Assembly (NCBI RefSeq): GCF_004570875.1 | Contig: NZ_SPQK01000009.1 | Span: 62,001 to 126,000 of the forward strand | Direction: 5' to 3' | Source: Blastococcus sp. CT_GayMR16 | GTDB lineage: Bacteria > Actinomycetota > Actinomycetes > Mycobacteriales > Geodermatophilaceae | Length of the DNA stretch: 64,000 bases | Part shown: one piece after another, positions 47,501 through 54,319 of the stretch | Layout: each line of letters begins with the position of its first letter | Position numbering within the stretch: the first letter of the stretch is position 1 | Program-made: the position numbers and the translations under genes | Notes under the pieces: model-generated | Databases searched by the model: none | The model's input: only the letters and a program-made list of their open reading frames with translations | Told to the model about the DNA's origin: nothing

Positions 47501-47899
47501 CGCCGACGGCCGGACCGGACCGAGCAGACGCTCGATGATCCGCCGGTCGCCGGGCCAGGCATCGAGAAGGACGTCCCGAGGGACCTGCCGGGCCGCGTAG
47601 CGGAAGGCGAGCGCGACCACCACAACGTCGTCCAGCGGGCCGATCACCGGGAGGAACTCCGGGATCAGGTCGATCGGCGAGAGCACCCACAGCCCGGCGA
47701 AGCCGACGGCGAGCTTGGCGCGGCGGGGGACGTCGGGGTTGCTGCGCAGGCGCCGCACGGTGGTGACGCAGGCCGGCAGGAAGCGCGCCAGCTCCTTCGC
47801 GGTGCCCTCCGGCAGGCGCCGGGCCAGCAGGATGAGCACCAGCCAGCTGGCCGCCATGACGCCGACAGCGATGCCGAGGCCGATCAGCCACTCACGCAC
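47210..47899 (-). CDS. YkvA/DUF1232 membrane protein with unusual antisense-encoded extension
   Basis: 229 residues as read. An N-terminal TM ('WLIGLGIAVGVMAASWLVLILLA' in outline, about 4-26) precedes the DUF1232 core with 'PRRAKLAVGFAGLWVLSPIDLIPEFLP' (by its ends) and 'VIGPLDDVVVVALAFRYA'. The recognisable domain ends near residue 127 (RRIIERLLG). The following 100 residues are hydrophilic, lack homology that I recognise and are antisense to the GNAT gene. A stop lies close by in another frame, so an indel or an unusually long tail are both possible. Confidence 0.75.
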   Translation of the reverse strand: MREWLIGLGIAVGVMAASWLVLILLARRLPEGTAKELARFLPACVTTVRRLRSNPDVPRRAKLAVGFAGLWVLSPIDLIPEFLPVIGPLDDVVVVALAFRYAARQVPRDVLLDAWPGDRRIIERLLGPVRPSASDDPGRRLGERVETHPLQDGPTRGQRVDLEVAEPTVPGEQGTVPHQRPEDPAAAPAGQRPAAPQAGEVGALVELDPARRDGDVAGPRDDGLDRPRS

Positions 47900-47957
47900 G
47901 GCCGGATCTCCCGCTCATGGACGCGACGGTACGACCTCCACGAGCGGGAACCAGCTG

Positions 47958-48257
47958 TCAGCTGGCGAGGTCGACCGAGGCGGCGCTGTCCCTGCGCAGC
48001 CGTGCCCGGTTCCGCCGCGGGGCGAGCGGGATCAGGCGCGGCTCCGGTGACCGCCGCTGATGGTGCGAGTGGGCCGCCATCGCCTGCTCGGCGTCGCGGA
48101 TCATCGCGGCGATGCGGGCCAGTCGGTCGCGGCTGGGCGAGGCGTCGACCGCGGCGGACGGCACGCTGCTGCCGGCCGCGACCGCCGGGAGTTCCAGCGG
48201 CGCCAGCTCTCGCACGACCTCGACCAGGTCCTCGGCCACGCCGACGGTGAGGATCAT
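47958..48257 (-). CDS. Small hypothetical protein coupled to dnaB
   Basis: 99 residues. The ATG shares one base with the dnaB stop (TGATG at 48255-48259), typical translational coupling. The sequence has a helical N-terminal part ('DRLARIAAMIRDAEQAMAAHSHHQ' in outline) and an Arg-rich C-terminus (RRNRARLRRDSAAS). I recognise no family. The coupling is the main support for it being real. Confidence 0.5.
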   Translation of the reverse strand: MILTVGVAEDLVEVVRELAPLELPAVAAGSSVPSAAVDASPSRDRLARIAAMIRDAEQAMAAHSHHQRRSPEPRLIPLAPRRNRARLRRDSAASVDLAS

Positions 48258-50971
48258 CAGTTGGCCATGTCCACGAAGCGGCTGTAGTGGCCCTGGAAGG
48301 CCACGGTGACGTTCGCGGTCGGGCCGTTGCGGTGCTTGACCAGCATGATGTCGGCCTCGCCGGCCCGCGGGGACTCCTTCTCGTACATGTCCTCGCGGTG
48401 GATCATCATGACCATGTCGGCGTCCTGCTCGATCGAGCCGGATTCGCGCAGGTCGGACAGCATCGGCTTCTTGTCCTGACGCTGCTCGGAACCACGGTTC
48501 AGCTGCGACATGGCGATCACCGGCACCTCGAGCTCCTTGGCCAGCAGCTTCAGCGCCCGGGAGAACTCCGAGACCTCCTGCTGGCGGCTCTCGACGCGCT
48601 TGCCCGACGTCATCAGCTGCAGGTAGTCGATGACCACCAGCTTGAGGTCGTTGCGCTGCTTGAGGCGGCGGGCCTTGGCCCGGATCTCCATCATCGTCAT
48701 GTTCGGGGAGTCGTCGATGTAGAGCGGGGCATCGGCGATCTCGCCCATGCGCCGGGCCAGCTTCGACCAGTCCTCGTCCGACAGCGAGCCGGCGCGCATG
48801 TGGTGCAGCGGCACCTTCGCCTCGGCCGACAGCAGACGCATGGTGATCTCGTGCTTGCTCATCTCCAGCGAGAAGATCGCGGCCGGCATGTGGTTCTTGA
48901 TCGATGCCGATCGCGCGATGTCGAGTCCGAGGGTGGAGTTGTGCGTCGGGATGAAGCTCCGGCCCGCCAGGAAGAGCGAGTCATCGGCAGCAACCTGGAT
49001 GCAGCGGACCGGCACGCTCACGATCGGACGTACGTCGGTGATGAACCGGACCCCGCGTGCGGTGAACGTGCGTGCACCCCGCTCCTTGTGGACCAGCTTC
49101 TTGCGCTCGAGCCGGAACACCTCCTCATCGGTGCTGAAGGTCAGCGTGAAGCAGATGGACGACTTCTCGCTGCGGCCCGGCACCCGCTTACGGCTCATCC
49201 CCACCCGGTGACCGAGGCTCGCGATGAGCTCGCGGGTGTCCTCGGCGAGCCGGCGGTTGGTGACCGCAAACTGGACGACGCCGTTGGGTGCCACGGTGCC
49301 GTCCGTGTCGAGCAAGCCGGCCAGCAGAGCCCGCCGCTGTTCAACGGACGCCCGCAGGTAAGCGGTTGGGATGTGCTTGTCGCCGAGGACGTCCAAGGAG
49401 CGGAGAAGGCCCGTTACGGTGCCGTGGGCAGCCCGGCAGGCGTGGCACTGCGCCAGCCCAGCGGACGGCCCACCGCAGTCGGGGCAGGAAGCCGAACGCC
49501 CGGCCACCCCAGCGGCGCGCAGCCTGCCTCCACAGGTCTTGCCGCAGGTCTGCACCTGCGACGTCTTCGGGACGAAGAGTTCGCCGCACATCGGGCAGGG
49601 ACGTGCCTCGATGTCGTCCCGCGCCGGCAGCCGCATCACATAGCGGAGAGGAGTGGACGTGCGCTCGACGGTCAGGCCTTCGGCCTCGATGTACGCGGCG
49701 ATCTCCGGGTCCGCGCTCGTGTAGTGAGCTGCGGCCGACGTGCCGTCACCGAGCCACACCCCGAGGGCGTAGGGCGGGAGGGGCAGATCGGCATCGGGCA
49801 GTTCCAAGGGAGCGGCATTGGTGATCGAGTGGTTGAGCCGCGCGTCCTTGGTCTCGCAGCGAACGGAGCGGGCGATCTGCTCCGTCGTCCGGACGGCGGC
49901 GAAGGTGCCCTGGTTGCGGTAGCCGTTGTAGCCGACACGCGCGGCCTGCGCAGACTTCCGGCTGGCCCTGGTGTCGGTCAGCCACTGGTGCTGCGCGTCG
50001 GCCACGATCACCGAGCCGTCGGAGAAGTGCACCTCGTAGCAGGGCCGGTCGATCAGGACGTCGGTCGCGGCGACGACGCTCGTGGGCCGGCCGTCAGAGC
50101 CGATCACCTGCGCGCCGACAGCGATCTCGCCCATGGTCGTCCAGCCGGCGGGCGTCGCGATCGGAGTGTCGAGGGCCAGCGCCTTTCCCACGCCGGGCCG
50201 GGCCGCGATGACGATCATCTGACCGGCCTGCAGCCCGTTGGTGAGCTCGTCGAGATCGCGGATGCCGGTCGGCACGCCGCGGCTGACCCCGCCCCGTGAG
50301 GCGATGGCGTCCAGCTCGTCCATCGTCGGCTGGAGGATGTCCTCGAGGCGGGAGTAGTCCTCGCTCATCCGCTTCTCGGTGACGTCGTAGATCTCCTGCT
50401 GGGCGCGGTCGACGATGTCGTCGACGTCGCCCTTCCCGCCGGCGGCGCCGTAGCCCAGCTGGACGACGCGGGTGCCGGCCTCGACCAGTCGCCGCAGCAC
50501 GGCCTGCTCGGCCACGATCGCGGCGTAGTACCCGGCGTTGGCCGCGGTGGGGGTCGAGGCGATCAGGGTGTGCAGGTAGACCGCGCCGCCCATCTTCGAC
50601 AGCTGGTCGGTGCGGTTGAGCTCCGCGGCGACGGTGATCGCGTCGGCGGGCTCACCGCGCCCGTAGAGGTCCAGGACGCAGTCGAAGATCACCTGGTGCG
50701 CGGGACGGTAGAAGTCCGTGCCCTGCAGGGCCTCCACGACGTCGGCGATGGCGTCCTTGCTCAGCAGCATGCCGCCGAGCACCGACTGCTCGGCCGGGAT
50801 GTCCTGCGGGGGCTGCCGGTCGTACGCCGGTGCCGTCGCCGAAGGCCGGCTGAAGTCGTCGGCCAACGCCACGGGGTTCCTCCATCTCCTTGCGGGCACG
50901 CCCGCACCACCACTCCGGAGGGAAGCCGGGAGTTCGGCGGGCGCCGCCGGACCGAACGTCTGTTCGGTCAT
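48257..50971 (-). CDS. dnaB: Replicative DNA helicase DnaB interrupted by an intein
   Basis: 904 residues as translated: 489 of DnaB after removal of a 415-residue intein (264-678). The DnaB N-terminal domain is at about 52-160 ('PPQDIPAEQSVLGGMLLS'), then the linker and the RecA-like domain from about 230 ('GVPTGIRDLDELTNGLQAGQ'). The intein splits Walker A, 'AARPGVGK' / 'STLG'. Downstream are 'FSLEMSKHEITMRLL', Walker B 'KLVVIDYLQLM' and 'QLNRGSEQRQDKKPMLSDLRESG' in outline. It unwinds DNA at the replication fork as a hexamer. Without splicing the ATP site would be destroyed. Gene order rpsF-ssb-rpsR-rplI-dnaB is as in mycobacteria, with a 579-bp gap before dnaB. Confidence 0.97.
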   Translation of the reverse strand: MTEQTFGPAAPAELPASLRSGGAGVPARRWRNPVALADDFSRPSATAPAYDRQPPQDIPAEQSVLGGMLLSKDAIADVVEALQGTDFYRPAHQVIFDCVLDLYGRGEPADAITVAAELNRTDQLSKMGGAVYLHTLIASTPTAANAGYYAAIVAEQAVLRRLVEAGTRVVQLGYGAAGGKGDVDDIVDRAQQEIYDVTEKRMSEDYSRLEDILQPTMDELDAIASRGGVSRGVPTGIRDLDELTNGLQAGQMIVIAARPGVGKALALDTPIATPAGWTTMGEIAVGAQVIGSDGRPTSVVAATDVLIDRPCYEVHFSDGSVIVADAQHQWLTDTRASRKSAQAARVGYNGYRNQGTFAAVRTTEQIARSVRCETKDARLNHSITNAAPLELPDADLPLPPYALGVWLGDGTSAAAHYTSADPEIAAYIEAEGLTVERTSTPLRYVMRLPARDDIEARPCPMCGELFVPKTSQVQTCGKTCGGRLRAAGVAGRSASCPDCGGPSAGLAQCHACRAAHGTVTGLLRSLDVLGDKHIPTAYLRASVEQRRALLAGLLDTDGTVAPNGVVQFAVTNRRLAEDTRELIASLGHRVGMSRKRVPGRSEKSSICFTLTFSTDEEVFRLERKKLVHKERGARTFTARGVRFITDVRPIVSVPVRCIQVAADDSLFLAGRSFIPTHNSTLGLDIARSASIKNHMPAAIFSLEMSKHEITMRLLSAEAKVPLHHMRAGSLSDEDWSKLARRMGEIADAPLYIDDSPNMTMMEIRAKARRLKQRNDLKLVVIDYLQLMTSGKRVESRQQEVSEFSRALKLLAKELEVPVIAMSQLNRGSEQRQDKKPMLSDLRESGSIEQDADMVMMIHREDMYEKESPRAGEADIMLVKHRNGPTANVTVAFQGHYSRFVDMAN
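48938..50182 (-). mobile_element. Class 3-type intein with LAGLIDADG endonuclease in DnaB
   Basis: Residues 264-678 of the precursor (415 aa). The first residue is Ala (ALALDTPIATPAGW), not Cys/Ser; it ends 'SFIPTHN' and is followed by Ser679. The class 3 WCT set is visible: Trp330 in 'VADAQHQWLTD' (block B), Cys657 in 'VPVRCIQVA' (block F, the expected first nucleophile) and Thr676 in 'FIPTHN' (block G). The homing endonuclease has two LAGLIDADG helices, 'PYALGVWLGDGTS' (about 400) and 'LLAGLLDTDGTVA' (about 549). Between them are Cys pairs C459/C462, C476/C480, C496/C499 and C509/C512, resembling zinc ribbons. Confidence 0.93.
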
Positions 50972-51550
50972 TGCTACCGCCGGGCACCGACAGTTCTCGG
51001 CACCCGGCGGCAGCTGAGGAGGACGTTAGGAAGGCGGAGGGGTCGCCGTCCATCACCGGTGTGCACGCCGATCTGCACAACTTGTGGACAAGTCGGTGGA
51101 TGGAGGCGTGTCGACATGTGGAGACGGCGGGGGACACCCGGCGGCCATCTCCCGGCTTCCCCGTCGTCACCTGCGCCGACGGTGCCCACCGGCTGTGGAC
51201 AGGAGAAAAGCGCCAACAAATTTTGCGAGTCGCACCACGTGTCCCACGTCCGCACGCGGCGGCACCTCTCGGGCGCCTGAGGACGACGAAGGACGGCCGG
51301 CCGGCTGGCAGGAACTCACAGCGACCCCGTCAGGAGCCCTGGGATGGCCGAAGGTGGCCGCGCGGCCACCCGGGGCAGCGGAGGACGGCGCGAGGAGAGC
51401 CTCGGGGCACTCAGGCCGCGTGCGGTGCCTCGCTGTCCACAGACGCCGCGAGGGGCGCCGGACCGGAGTCCGACGCCCCTCGCGGGTACGGCCTCCCTGC
51501 AGGGTCCCGCCGCGAGCATGCGAGCGGTGGGGGGCAGGGAGGTCCTTCAA
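50972..51550. promoter_or_regulatory. 579-bp non-coding gap upstream of dnaB
   Basis: I see no supported gene. It contains the dnaB promoter region, several TGTGGACA/TGTCCACA-type sequences (best: TTGTGGACAA at 51082-51091, whose complement TTGTCCACA is the high-GC DnaA-box consensus; weaker copies near 51193 and 51434), one TGTCGACA at 51109-51116, and the rplI terminator hairpin at 51446-51485. The region is locally lower in GC around 51060-51260. Confidence 0.5.
51446..51485 (-). terminator. Long hairpin downstream of rplI
   Basis: CCGCGAGGGGCG-c-CGGAC pairs with GTCCG-a-CGCCCCTCGCGG around a 4-nt loop: 17 paired bases with one internal mismatch. It is 65 bp after the rplI stop and should separate the ribosomal operon from dnaB. 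Confidence 0.8.
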
Positions 51551-52006
51551 TCAGCTGGCGACGACCTCGATCTGCAGCGTGGTCGAGACCTCGGGATGCA
51601 CTCGCACGGAGACGGTGTGCTGGCCCGTGGTCTTGATGCTGCTGGGCAGCTCGATACGACGACGGTCGAGCTCCGGGCCGCCGGCGGCCGTGACGGCCGC
51701 GGCGACGTCGGCAGTGGTGACGCGACCGAACAGGCGGCCACCCTCGCCGGCGCGCGCCGGGACGCGGACCGTGAGTCCGGACAGCTGCCCGGCCACGGCG
51801 GTCGCCTCTTCCTGCGAACGCACCTCACGGGCGGCACGCGCCCGGCGCAGCGACTCGATCTGCTTCTCGGCACCGCGGGTGGCCTGGATGGCCAGGCCGC
51901 GGGGCAGGAGGTAGTTGCGGCCGTAGCCGCCCTTGACCTCGACGGTGTCACCGGAGGAACCGAGACCGGTGACTTCGGCGGTGAGGATGAGCTTCAGGGT
52001 GCTCAT
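51551..52006 (-). CDS. rplI: 50S ribosomal protein L9
   Basis: 151 residues. The N-terminal L9 signature 'LILTAEVTGLGSSGDTVEVKGGYGRNYLLPRGLA' is seen (by its ends), followed by the long connecting helix and the C-terminal domain ('GRLFGRVTTADVAAAV', 'IELPSSIKTTGQHTVSVRVHPEV' in outline). It binds 23S rRNA near the L1 stalk. Starts 1 bp after the rpsR stop, the last gene of the rpsF-ssb-rpsR-rplI operon. Confidence 0.98.
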   Translation of the reverse strand: MSTLKLILTAEVTGLGSSGDTVEVKGGYGRNYLLPRGLAIQATRGAEKQIESLRRARAAREVRSQEEATAVAGQLSGLTVRVPARAGEGGRLFGRVTTADVAAAVTAAGGPELDRRRIELPSSIKTTGQHTVSVRVHPEVSTTLQIEVVAS

Positions 52007-52007
52007 G

Positions 52008-52244
52008 TCAGCGCGCCGTCGAGGTGTAGGGCAGCAGCGCCATCTCGCGGCTGTTCTTCACGGCCACGGCGACGTCGCGCTGGTGCTGGCTGCAGTTGCC
52101 GCTGACGCGGCGGGCACGGATCTTGCCGCGGTCGGAGATGAACTTCCGCAGCAGCGTCGTGTCCTTGTAGTCGACGTGGGTCGCCTTGTCCTTGCAGAAC
52201 TGGCAGACCTTCTTCTTGACCTTGCGAATGGGGGGCTTGGGCAC
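52008..52244 (-). CDS. rpsR: 30S ribosomal protein S18
   Basis: 78 residues, with '[20 protein letters not shown]' (CxxC), '[20 protein letters not shown]' and '[10 protein letters not shown]'. The CxxC plus 'GNCSQHQ' marks the zinc-binding (C+) form; actinobacteria often keep a second, zinc-free paralogue induced by zinc starvation, not in this window. Pairs with S6 on the 30S platform. Confidence 0.98.
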
Positions 52245-52285
52245 CGGGGTACTCCAGATACGAGTGGATCAGGGAGAGGAAGGGA

Positions 52286-52786
52286 TCAGAAGGGCGGTTC
52301 GTCGGACGGACCGGCGGGCGTCGACCAGGGGTCGCTCGAACCGCCGCCGCCGCCACCACCGGAGGAGCCGAAGCCGCCTCCGCCGCCACCGCCACCGGAG
52401 AAGCCGCCGCCGCCTTCACCGCGCGAGGCCTTGGTGACCTTCGCGGTGGCGTAGCGGAGCGAGGGGCCGATCTCGTCGACCTCCAGCTCGATGACGGTGC
52501 GCTTCTCGCCTTCCTTGGTGTCGAACGAGCGCTGCTTGAGCCGCCCGCTGACGATGACCCGCGAACCGCGGGTGAGGGACTCGGCGACGTTCTCGGCCAC
52601 CTGCCGCCACACGTTGCACCGGAGGAACAGCGCCTCGCCGTCCTTCCACTCCTGCGACTGACGGTCGAAGGTGCGGGGGGTCGAGGCCACAGTGAAGTTG
52701 GCGACCGCGGCGCCGGAAGGCGTGAACCGGAGTTCCGGGTCCGACGTCAGGTTGCCGATGACGGTGATGACGGTTTCGCCGGCCAT
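52286..52786 (-). CDS. ssb: Single-stranded DNA-binding protein
   Basis: 166 residues. OB-fold about 1-112 ('[20 protein letters not shown]', '[18 protein letters not shown]', '[15 protein letters not shown]'). A glycine-rich linker ([20 protein letters not shown]) follows and the acidic tip 'GPSDEPPF' ends in the DxxPF motif that binds partner proteins. Located 2 bp after rpsF and 41 bp before rpsR; the operon order matches mycobacteria. Confidence 0.98.
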
Positions 52787-52788
52787 GG

Positions 52789-53076
52789 TCAGTGAGCCTC
52801 TGGGCGCATCAGCTTCGTGCGGAGCACCGACTCGTTGAGGTTCAGCTGCCGGTCGAGCTCGGCGACCGCCTCGGGCTCCGACTCGATCGTGACGATCGCG
52901 TAGATGCCCTCGATCTGCTTCTTGATCTCGTAGGCGAGCCGACGCTTGCCCCAGATCTCGGTCTTGACGGTGCCACCGGCCTTGGTGACGACGGTCAGGA
53001 ACCGGTCGAGTGAGGGAGCGATGGTGCGCTCCTCGAGCTCGGGGTCGAGGATGACCATCAGTTCGTAATGACGCAC
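52789..53076 (-). CDS. rpsF: 30S ribosomal protein S6
   Basis: 95 residues from GTG 53076 ('[20 protein letters not shown]'); an AGGAGG lies about 11 nt upstream. '[21 protein letters not shown]' and '[18 protein letters not shown]' are typical S6 features. It opens the rpsF-ssb-rpsR-rplI operon; the 160-bp region upstream (53077-53237) should hold the promoter and contains one TGTCCACAG sequence. Confidence 0.97.
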
Positions 53077-53237
53077 GGGAAACCCCACCTCCTCTGGTCT
53101 TGGCGGCTGCAGAAGGTCTGCAGCAGGAGGGTCGTGCATGCGTTGCGCGCCCCGACAGACGCCGGAACGCGCAGGACGAGGCTACCAGCGCGCGGGCGGG
53201 AACCTTCCGGGGCTGTCCACAGGCCCCCGCACAGCAG

Positions 53238-53274
53238 CGCGGCCGCCGTCCCCGGATGGAGGACGGCGGCCGCG
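53238..53274 (-). terminator. Perfect 14-bp hairpin after the secreted-protein gene
   Basis: CGCGGCCGCCGTCC pairs with GGACGGCGGCCGCG around a 9-nt loop, 14 bp after the stop at 53288. Confidence 0.8.
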
Positions 53275-53287
53275 GAGCCGGGACGCG

Positions 53288-54319
53288 TTACCGGGAGGAG
53301 CGGGACGCCTGGTGCGTGCGGACCAGCGCGGCGGTGACCGCAGCCAGGGCGACGACGGCGGCCAGAGCGGCTGCCGGCAGCGCCTGCGCGGCGGACGACG
53401 AGGAGGACGCGGTCTCCTGGGCGCTCTGGTCGTCCAGGGCGGCGCCGTCGAGGCCGGCGAGCTGGCCGAAGACCGGCACGGAGGCGCCGTCGTAGCTGCC
53501 CGCCACCCCACCGGAGCCGTTCGCGCTGTCGTTGCGGTCCGGCCCGCCGAGGCTGCGGCCCGGCACGTAGAAGCGCGACGGGTCGAAGGCCGACGCGGCC
53601 GCGATGCTGGCCGGCGACAACTGCGGCGCACCGGAGCCGGTGTTGTAGGTGTACTGCGAACCCGGCACGCCCTCGACGCCGGTCGGGCCGCCGGGGGTCG
53701 GGGCCTGGTCGACCGGCCCACCCGGCGTGGGCAGCGTGGTCGGCGGCTGCGGTCCGCCGGCCGGGACGCCCGGCAGGTTCGGCACGGTCACCGGCGGGAG
53801 CTGCGGCACGTTGACGCCGCCGAGGTTGGGCAGCGGCACGAGCGTGTTCACGACGAACGGGGTCGGCGCCGGGAGCGCCGGCAGCAGGCCCAGAGCGGCA
53901 TCGGTGAGCGGCTGGGTGAGCGAGGCGTTGCTCGACAGGCGGTAGGTGAAGGTCACCACGCAGTTCACGCAGGACGAGGCGAACTTCTCGGCCACCGAGG
54001 CGCCGGGTGCCAGCGCCTTGGTGCCCGACGGGAGCCGGAGGCCCACCTCGGTCTTCGCCGTCACGCTGACCAGCGACGGGATGAGTCCGCCACCGCCGAC
54101 CTGCACGGTCTTGTCCTGGATCTCGTTGACGAAGGTCACCGTGCCACCGGCGTCGACGGAGACCGCCGGGACGGTGACGTCACGGATCGGCACGGTGGCG
54201 GTCGGTGCGGCGGCCGCGCTCGGTGCCATGAGCACCGCGAAGGCCGCCACCCCCAGCCATCCGAGGACGGCGACGGCGATGCCCCGCCGCGCGCTTCGAC
54301 GGATCCGACCGGTTTCCAT
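53288..54319 (-). CDS. Secreted, membrane-tethered surface protein (unknown function)
   Basis: 343 residues from ATG 54319; GGAGG is about 11 nt before it. A twin-Arg-free signal peptide ('GIAVAVLGWLGVAAFAVLMAPSAAA' in outline) ends near residue 38. A beta-rich domain follows ('VTVPAVSVDAGGTVTFVNEI', 'CVNCVVTFTYRLSS') that looks cupredoxin- or Ig-like, with two nearby Cys that could pair. A Pro/Gly-rich segment (about 150-235) precedes the C-terminal TM ('LPAAALAAVVALAAVTAALV') and a short basic tail. This is the layout of surface-anchored wall proteins. Function unknown. Confidence 0.8.
   Translation of the reverse strand: METGRIRRSARRGIAVAVLGWLGVAAFAVLMAPSAAAAPTATVPIRDVTVPAVSVDAGGTVTFVNEIQDKTVQVGGGGLIPSLVSVTAKTEVGLRLPSGTKALAPGASVAEKFASSCVNCVVTFTYRLSSNASLTQPLTDAALGLLPALPAPTPFVVNTLVPLPNLGGVNVPQLPPVTVPNLPGVPAGGPQPPTTLPTPGGPVDQAPTPGGPTGVEGVPGSQYTYNTGSGAPQLSPASIAAASAFDPSRFYVPGRSLGGPDRNDSANGSGGVAGSYDGASVPVFGQLAGLDGAALDDQSAQETASSSSSAAQALPAAALAAVVALAAVTAALVRTHQASRSSR

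Follow-up and report, generated by a model that had tools for sequence, protein, structure and literature searches.

Within the window, that is, the 64,000-nucleotide stretch of contig NZ_SPQK01000009.1 analysed here, from Blastococcus sp. CT_GayMR16 (Geodermatophilaceae; genome of 4.52 Mb in 47 contigs), the gene of the replicative helicase DnaB is interrupted by an intein. With high confidence, we read this segment as a class 3 intein of full length that occupies site b of DnaB, the P-loop site, and that would splice to restore the Walker A motif and home through a LAGLIDADG endonuclease; it is an additional full-length member of the already known family of class 3 P-loop inteins. The host open reading frame (48257-50971, reverse strand, 904 residues) was identified as DnaB by its matches to the Pfam families DnaB and DnaB_C, and the intein corresponds to residues 264-678 of the precursor, exactly at the coordinates given in the original prediction, which was made by a model from the letters and reading frames only:

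50183..50971, reverse strand: DnaB N-extein, 263 residues, ending in ...ARPGVGK of Walker A (Pfam DnaB, DnaB_C)
48938..50182, reverse strand: class 3 intein, 415 residues, Ala1 to Asn415
48257..48937, reverse strand: DnaB C-extein, 226 residues plus stop, starting STLGLDIARSA (Pfam match), with the Ser+1 codon at 48935-48937

With its flanks, the intein reads MIVIAARPGVGK / ALALDTP...IPTHN / STLGLDIARSAS. The junctions, ARPGVGK/ALALDTP and FIPTHN/STLGLDIA, interrupt Walker A, as had been predicted, and do so between Lys and Ser, which is the insertion point of DnaB-b (P-loop) inteins (ARPGVGK/A...N/STLG). The C-extein of DnaB has a single match in the organism's own genome (E 1e-60), so the helicase depends on the splice.

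The original prediction had also assigned the intein to class 3, because its first residue is Ala, leaving no Cys or Ser nucleophile at this position, and because Trp330, Cys657 and Thr676 of the precursor seemed to form the Trp/Cys/Thr (WCT) set of this class. Every part of this assignment that could be compared with known sequences held. Searching the sequences of the PDB with phmmer gave class 3 DnaB inteins as the nearest solved structures, namely those of Mycobacterium chimaera (6rix/6riy, E 2e-35) and of M. smegmatis, DnaBi1 (6bs8, E 9e-34; also 6own). The three precursor residues are W67, C394 and T413 of the intein. In the alignment to DnaBi1, for which residue names were taken from PMC6195587, C394 falls on Cys118 (block F) and T413 on Thr137 (block G), while the ungapped N-terminal stretch 1-71 brings W67 onto Trp67 and C48 onto Cys48; Cys657, whose location outside block F had been named as the observation that would speak against the assignment, thus aligns to the block F Cys. 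The class 3 signature consists of a first residue other than Cys, Ser or Thr, a block B Trp (B:12), a block F Cys (F:4) and a block G Thr (G:5), all of which are found here, together with the further class 3 traits of an HN end and Ser+1. A1, W67, C394, T413, H414 and N415 are each present in 82/82 relatives, and a fold search with the predicted model returned the Hint fold expected of such an intein. The splicing parts lie as follows, all on the reverse strand:

49967..50182, reverse strand: N-terminal splicing half, blocks A and B, residues 1-72
50039..50041, reverse strand: Cys48, counterpart of the DnaBi1 Cys48 that forms a disulfide with the catalytic Cys (82/82 relatives)
49988..49990, reverse strand: block B His65 (82/82 relatives)
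49982..49984, reverse strand: Trp67 (precursor Trp330), the W of the WCT set (82/82 relatives)
48938..49045, reverse strand: C-terminal splicing half, blocks F and G, residues 380-415
49001..49003, reverse strand: Cys394 (precursor Cys657), block F nucleophile by homology (82/82 relatives)
48971..48973, reverse strand: Phe404, at the position of the zinc-coordinating Tyr128 of DnaBi1
48938..48946, reverse strand: Thr413-His414-Asn415, the block G end (Thr being precursor Thr676; each 82/82 relatives)

Class 3 splicing at the P-loop site, its stall upon oxidation and its inhibition by zinc have all been published for DnaBi1 (PMC6195587, PMC7360933). By analogy with the studied homologues, translation of the Blastococcus gene would give an inactive DnaB precursor with a split Walker A, in which Cys394 of block F would attack the Lys-Ala1 bond and come to carry the N-extein in a first branched thioester. 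The N-extein would then pass from Cys394 to Ser+1, and Asn415 would cyclise, joining the exteins and restoring GKS, with Trp67, Thr413 and His65 presumably supporting the splicing site.

Two features that are absent from the account given in the original prediction, a LAGLIDADG endonuclease and an insert with eight cysteines, occupy the middle of the intein:

49745..49774, reverse strand: first LAGLIDADG motif, residues 137-146 (PYALGVWLGD), acidic residue Asp146 (Asp in 77/82 relatives)
49436..49597, reverse strand: eight-cysteine, double zinc-ribbon-like insert, residues 196-249 (CPMC..CGKTC..CPDC..CHAC)
49292..49327, reverse strand: second LAGLIDADG motif, residues 286-297 (LLAGLLDTDGTV), acidic residue Asp294 (Asp in 77/82 relatives)

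Both LAGLIDADG motifs carry their acidic residue, as homing endonucleases of this type do, and Asp146 and Asp294 align to positions 218 and 326 of PI-SceI, which we take to be its catalytic acids. All 56 aligned members of the family match Pfam LAGLIDADG_3, and 54 of them match Hom_end. Pairwise ratios of nonsynonymous to synonymous substitution rates (dN/dS) in five segments of 12 pairs range from 0 to 0.30, apart from a single 0.52 obtained for a pair whose dS is 0.04, and no clear difference separates the endonuclease and cysteine insert from the splicing parts. As judged from these sequences, the endonuclease is under purifying selection; such low ratios are expected of a functioning endonuclease, short of proving it to be one. 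If it functions as its studied homologues do, the insert-bearing endonuclease would cleave dnaB alleles that lack an intein, at the codons of the P-loop, and the segment would in this way propagate by homing. The DnaB-b inteins of mycobacteria are reported to have no endonuclease (PMC5050341; for M. smegmatis, PMC6195587); unlike these, the inteins at three Mycolicibacterium loci (L047, L050 and L051, from M. frederiksbergense and M. peregrinum) are full-length DnaB-b inteins of 417 residues.

The insert lies between both LAGLIDADG motifs and follows the pattern CPMC-x13-CGKTC-x15-CPDC-x9-CHAC, i.e., the four CxxC-like pairs of a double zinc ribbon (CxxC, CxxxC, CxxC and CxxC). All eight cysteines are present in 71 of the 82 relatives (72/83 rows when the window is counted). 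Pfam gave weak matches only, to the double zinc ribbon DZR_2 in 2/56 members and to a HVO_2753-type zinc pocket in 1/56, and a profile of the insert searched against PDB sequences returned short or weak matches, the best being Gfi-1 (E 0.00046 over 18/69 positions), with bL32 near 0.04. Within 41 related genomes, the same profile hit 10, at one place each; judged by locus or coordinates, 8 of these places are in DnaB inteins, the other two being in G357 and G366. When 50,697 phage records were searched with the insert by tblastn, no match at E 0.1 came up, and the aligned phage inteins either lack the insert or have different short cysteine motifs in its stead. Among the titles listed by literature searches, none names an eight-cysteine insert, and the insert is not claimed here to be unpublished. 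In the simplest reading, it would be a double zinc ribbon adding DNA contacts to the endonuclease, both these contacts and the binding of zinc being predictions.

The family to which this intein belongs appears bound to a single kind of site. The residues preceding the intein end in GK in 82/82 relatives, and in 63/63 usable further rows the insertion is at GK/S or GK/T and is accompanied by A1, C48, H65, W67, C394, T413 and N415; of these 64 further rows, one partial row (L143) is not counted, one (L119) is the window itself, and several repeat earlier loci. Since all usable rows are at GK/S or GK/T, the intein family is specialised for the GK/S/T of P-loops. Ten phage host proteins searched against Pfam include four terminases, one DnaB_C protein and one protein with an IclR-type helix-turn-helix (L140); the remaining four have no host domain match at E 1e-4. 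A family of this kind agrees with the published connection of phage TerL1 inteins to the DnaB-b inteins of mycobacteria (PMC5050341). L116, from Brevibacterium phage Rousseau, encodes a helicase resembling DnaB, whose class 3 intein (353 residues, at GAGK/T) lacks the cysteine insert. L188, L189 and L190 carry DnaB-b inteins of 486-501 residues, about 70-85 residues longer than that of the window; their profile matches break between about residues 67 and 92, and the extra segment seems to follow block B.

Presence of the intein within the Geodermatophilaceae is patchy: intein matches (E <= 1e-30) occur in 17/57 family genomes, 55 of which have a DnaB match. Empty alleles are at hand among 30 family loci, 23 of which read as intein-less at ARP..GK/STLG under a looser motif, the remaining 7 being intein-bearing; in 16/30, including the same-genus loci L090 and L092, GK is joined directly to STLG. 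Together with the alignments and the invariant residues, these empty alleles put the presence of the intein well beyond chance. In the intein protein tree, the window intein stands beside seven Modestobacter inteins (95/85), and its grouping with Blastococcus L013, L015 and L022 is rejected (p value of the approximately unbiased test, p-AU, 0.0009), as are the smaller groups with L015 and L022 (p-AU 0.0009) or with L015 alone (0.00007); all tree groups were named after the first tree had been seen. The intein DNA is closest to that of Modestobacter lapidis (81.8 percent) among nine loci compared, five Blastococcus-titled loci being at 77.1-80.2 percent, and the extein DNA is most identical to that of the intein-less same-genus locus L090 (92.4 percent), with three Modestobacter loci at 90.0-90.8 percent. 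These comparisons point to a transfer of the intein between genera, although the topology tests on the exteins leave homing only partly borne out.

Several observations weigh against a functional, homing intein as read here. In the extein DNA, neither the Modestobacter grouping (p-AU 0.10) nor that with six Blastococcus or same-genus rows (0.17) is rejected. No co-conversion tract was seen when the dnaB flanks of the window were compared with those of 23 intein-less and 13 intein-bearing loci, moving away from the junction 50 bases at a time; on the C side, both groups show their lowest identity, or close to it, in the first 50 bases. Each of the two acidic residues of the endonuclease is missing from 5/82 relatives, and the fold search was made with a predicted structure as the query. 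Some tests were set aside. A first extein tree (56 rows) was dropped, since for some rows the 570 bases taken on the C side could extend into another intein, one inserted at the second DnaB site, and it was rebuilt with 500 bases and 50 rows, L011, L019 and L026 being dropped as too short. Constraining the extein of the window to only five intein-bearing Modestobacter rows (p-AU 0.0003) is unfair, with intein-less Modestobacter rows left outside, the fairer test being the one that gave 0.10. An intein test with six Blastococcus rows (0.0035) is likewise unfair, given that those six are weakly rejected as one group even without the window (0.037).

The original prediction saw in this intein a potential redox- or metal-sensitive control point on replication. 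This idea is not new, having already been published as a hypothesis for DnaBi1, a close homologue (PMC6195587; as to zinc, PMC7360933), and its redox and metal parts have to be considered separately for the window intein. In DnaBi1, splicing stalls when a disulfide forms between Cys48 and the catalytic Cys, and every Cys48 replacement tried is reported to have abolished splicing (PMC6195587). The same source calls Cys48 non-conserved; in the P-loop family examined here, it is invariant, being found in 82/82 relatives and in 63/63 usable further rows, where the count for 39 viral loci is not independent, since one of the two peptide patterns used to find them contains Cys48, while loci L161-L190 (profile search) and L116 and L121 (tblastn) are free of this bias. 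Cys48 and the block F Cys, the sequence hallmark of the DnaBi1-type redox response, are thus both present, and redox sensitivity of the window intein is plausible. The PhoH intein of the same genome has the WCT set but Val at position 48, so Cys48 belongs to the P-loop group and not to all class 3 inteins. Endonuclease-bearing members have Cys48 too, which indicates that the Cys48/Cys394 pair most likely serves splicing first, any redox stall following from that. A different view would be that of a domesticated switch, the intein having been retained since the Cys48-Cys394 disulfide pauses maturation of the helicase under oxidative stress. The disulfide and stall demonstrated for DnaBi1 (PMC6195587), the presence of Cys48 in all relatives and the tolerance of Geodermatophilaceae to reactive oxygen, as described in PMC5742155, would suit such a role. 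We nonetheless consider it unlikely: the intein is only patchily present and close kin do without it, inteins with an endonuclease and those of phage terminases conserve the pair to the same degree, so that it looks like something splicing requires and not like an adaptation to the host, and the loss of splicing reported for all Cys48 replacements tried in DnaBi1 goes in the same direction.

Regulation by zinc is another alternative, and an improbable one in our estimate: zinc would either block Cys394 as in DnaBi1, or act via the eight-cysteine insert to tune folding of the endonuclease and hence homing. Zinc inhibition and a zinc-bound structure have indeed been published for DnaBi1, where the ligands are Cys118, the backbone of Val119 and the hydroxyl of Tyr128 (PMC7360933), and the eight cysteines of the insert are invariant in 33 aligned rows, although these were chosen from loci with a long insert. 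Of the two side chains concerned, however, only the Cys is kept in the window intein, Phe404 standing in place of Tyr128; Phe is also found in 29/29 closest loci (L001-L029), as opposed to Tyr in 51/53 of the others (L030-L082). With Phe404 replacing the zinc-binding Tyr, inhibition in the DnaBi1 geometry is less likely for this intein. As for the second route, zinc binding by the insert is itself a prediction, and the insert modelled in isolation gave a poor model (predicted local distance difference test, pLDDT, of 68). Finally, a splicing-dead or decaying intein, or an insertion tolerated without splicing, has a published precedent in the class 3 intein pseudogene Arth_1007 of Arthrobacter FB24 (PMC3196547) but is very improbable here, given the intact splicing residues, invariant in relatives, the low dN/dS and the single C-extein match in the genome, by which a splice is needed.

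Taken further, these data allow a tentative and possible view of the whole group, in which a P-loop class 3 intein sub-type, spread among actinobacterial dnaB genes, would have its LAGLIDADG endonuclease extended by a double zinc ribbon that assists in gripping the P-loop DNA. The Cys48/Cys394 pair would already have been fixed in the mobile forms, making the oxidation stall a by-product of splicing rather than an adaptation that followed the loss of the endonuclease, and in the Geodermatophilaceae branch, with Phe in place of the zinc-binding Tyr, zinc would cause little stalling or none. A literature search for inteins in Geodermatophilaceae found no paper. A well-studied kind of intein is here placed in another actinobacterial family, and full-length, endonuclease-bearing relatives of the mycobacterial mini-intein are supplied. 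This opens the question of whether the published redox and zinc responses are host adaptations or side effects of splicing chemistry, and the natural Phe/Tyr split at the zinc ligand, on a background of fixed Cys48, makes the two responses separable among wild-type inteins.

Among known systems, DnaBi1 of M. smegmatis (DnaB-b, class 3; 6bs8, 6own) shares with the window intein the gene, the GK/S site, Ala1, Cys48, the DxxH with His65, Trp67, the block F Cys, the block G Thr-His-Asn and Ser+1, but is a 139-residue mini-intein without endonuclease, whereas that of the window has the LAGLIDADG domain and the eight-cysteine insert; they differ as well at the zinc ligand, Tyr128 versus Phe. The M. 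chimaera DnaB1 intein (6rix, 6riy), also class 3, is the best PDB sequence match, yet its solved chain of 145-146 residues is without endonuclease. In the usable rows, the inteins of mycobacteriophage TerL1 and further class 3 inteins at phage P-loops have the WCT set, Cys48, the GK/S/T site and, in most cases, the endonuclease acids; they differ in their hosts, which are terminases or other proteins, and in lacking the eight-cysteine insert, some having shorter Cys motifs. PI-SceI, the yeast VMA intein, resembles the predicted window fold over its whole length in combining a Hint fold and a LAGLIDADG endonuclease, but it uses class 1 chemistry with Cys1 and is not known to contain an eight-cysteine insert. 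The PhoH intein, a second class 3 intein in the genome of CT_GayMR16 (contig 11, near 234194-235252; L084:1141-3411), has the same Ala1, Trp, Cys, Thr, His and Asn as well as a LAGLIDADG endonuclease; it differs by its site (MRGR/A...THN/T), its Val at 48 and its shorter length (357 residues), and it is without a cysteine-rich segment.

As to the surroundings of dnaB, a scan of 47800-53300 for promoters and terminators found none, and an Rfam scan of the window and a tRNA scan gave no match. Upstream open reading frames at 51551-53139 (reverse strand) were judged by eye to be those of ribosomal protein L9 (51551-52006), single-strand binding protein (52286-52786) and ribosomal protein S6 (52789-53139); S6, single-strand binding protein and L9 preceding dnaB is the usual actinobacterial order. 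In some family genomes (e.g., G048, G027, G038 and G023), the match to the DnaB C-extein stops near residue 170-176 of the C-extein, within long open frames, which suggests that in these kin a further intein occupies site a, the second DnaB insertion site; the DnaB of the window does not carry it.
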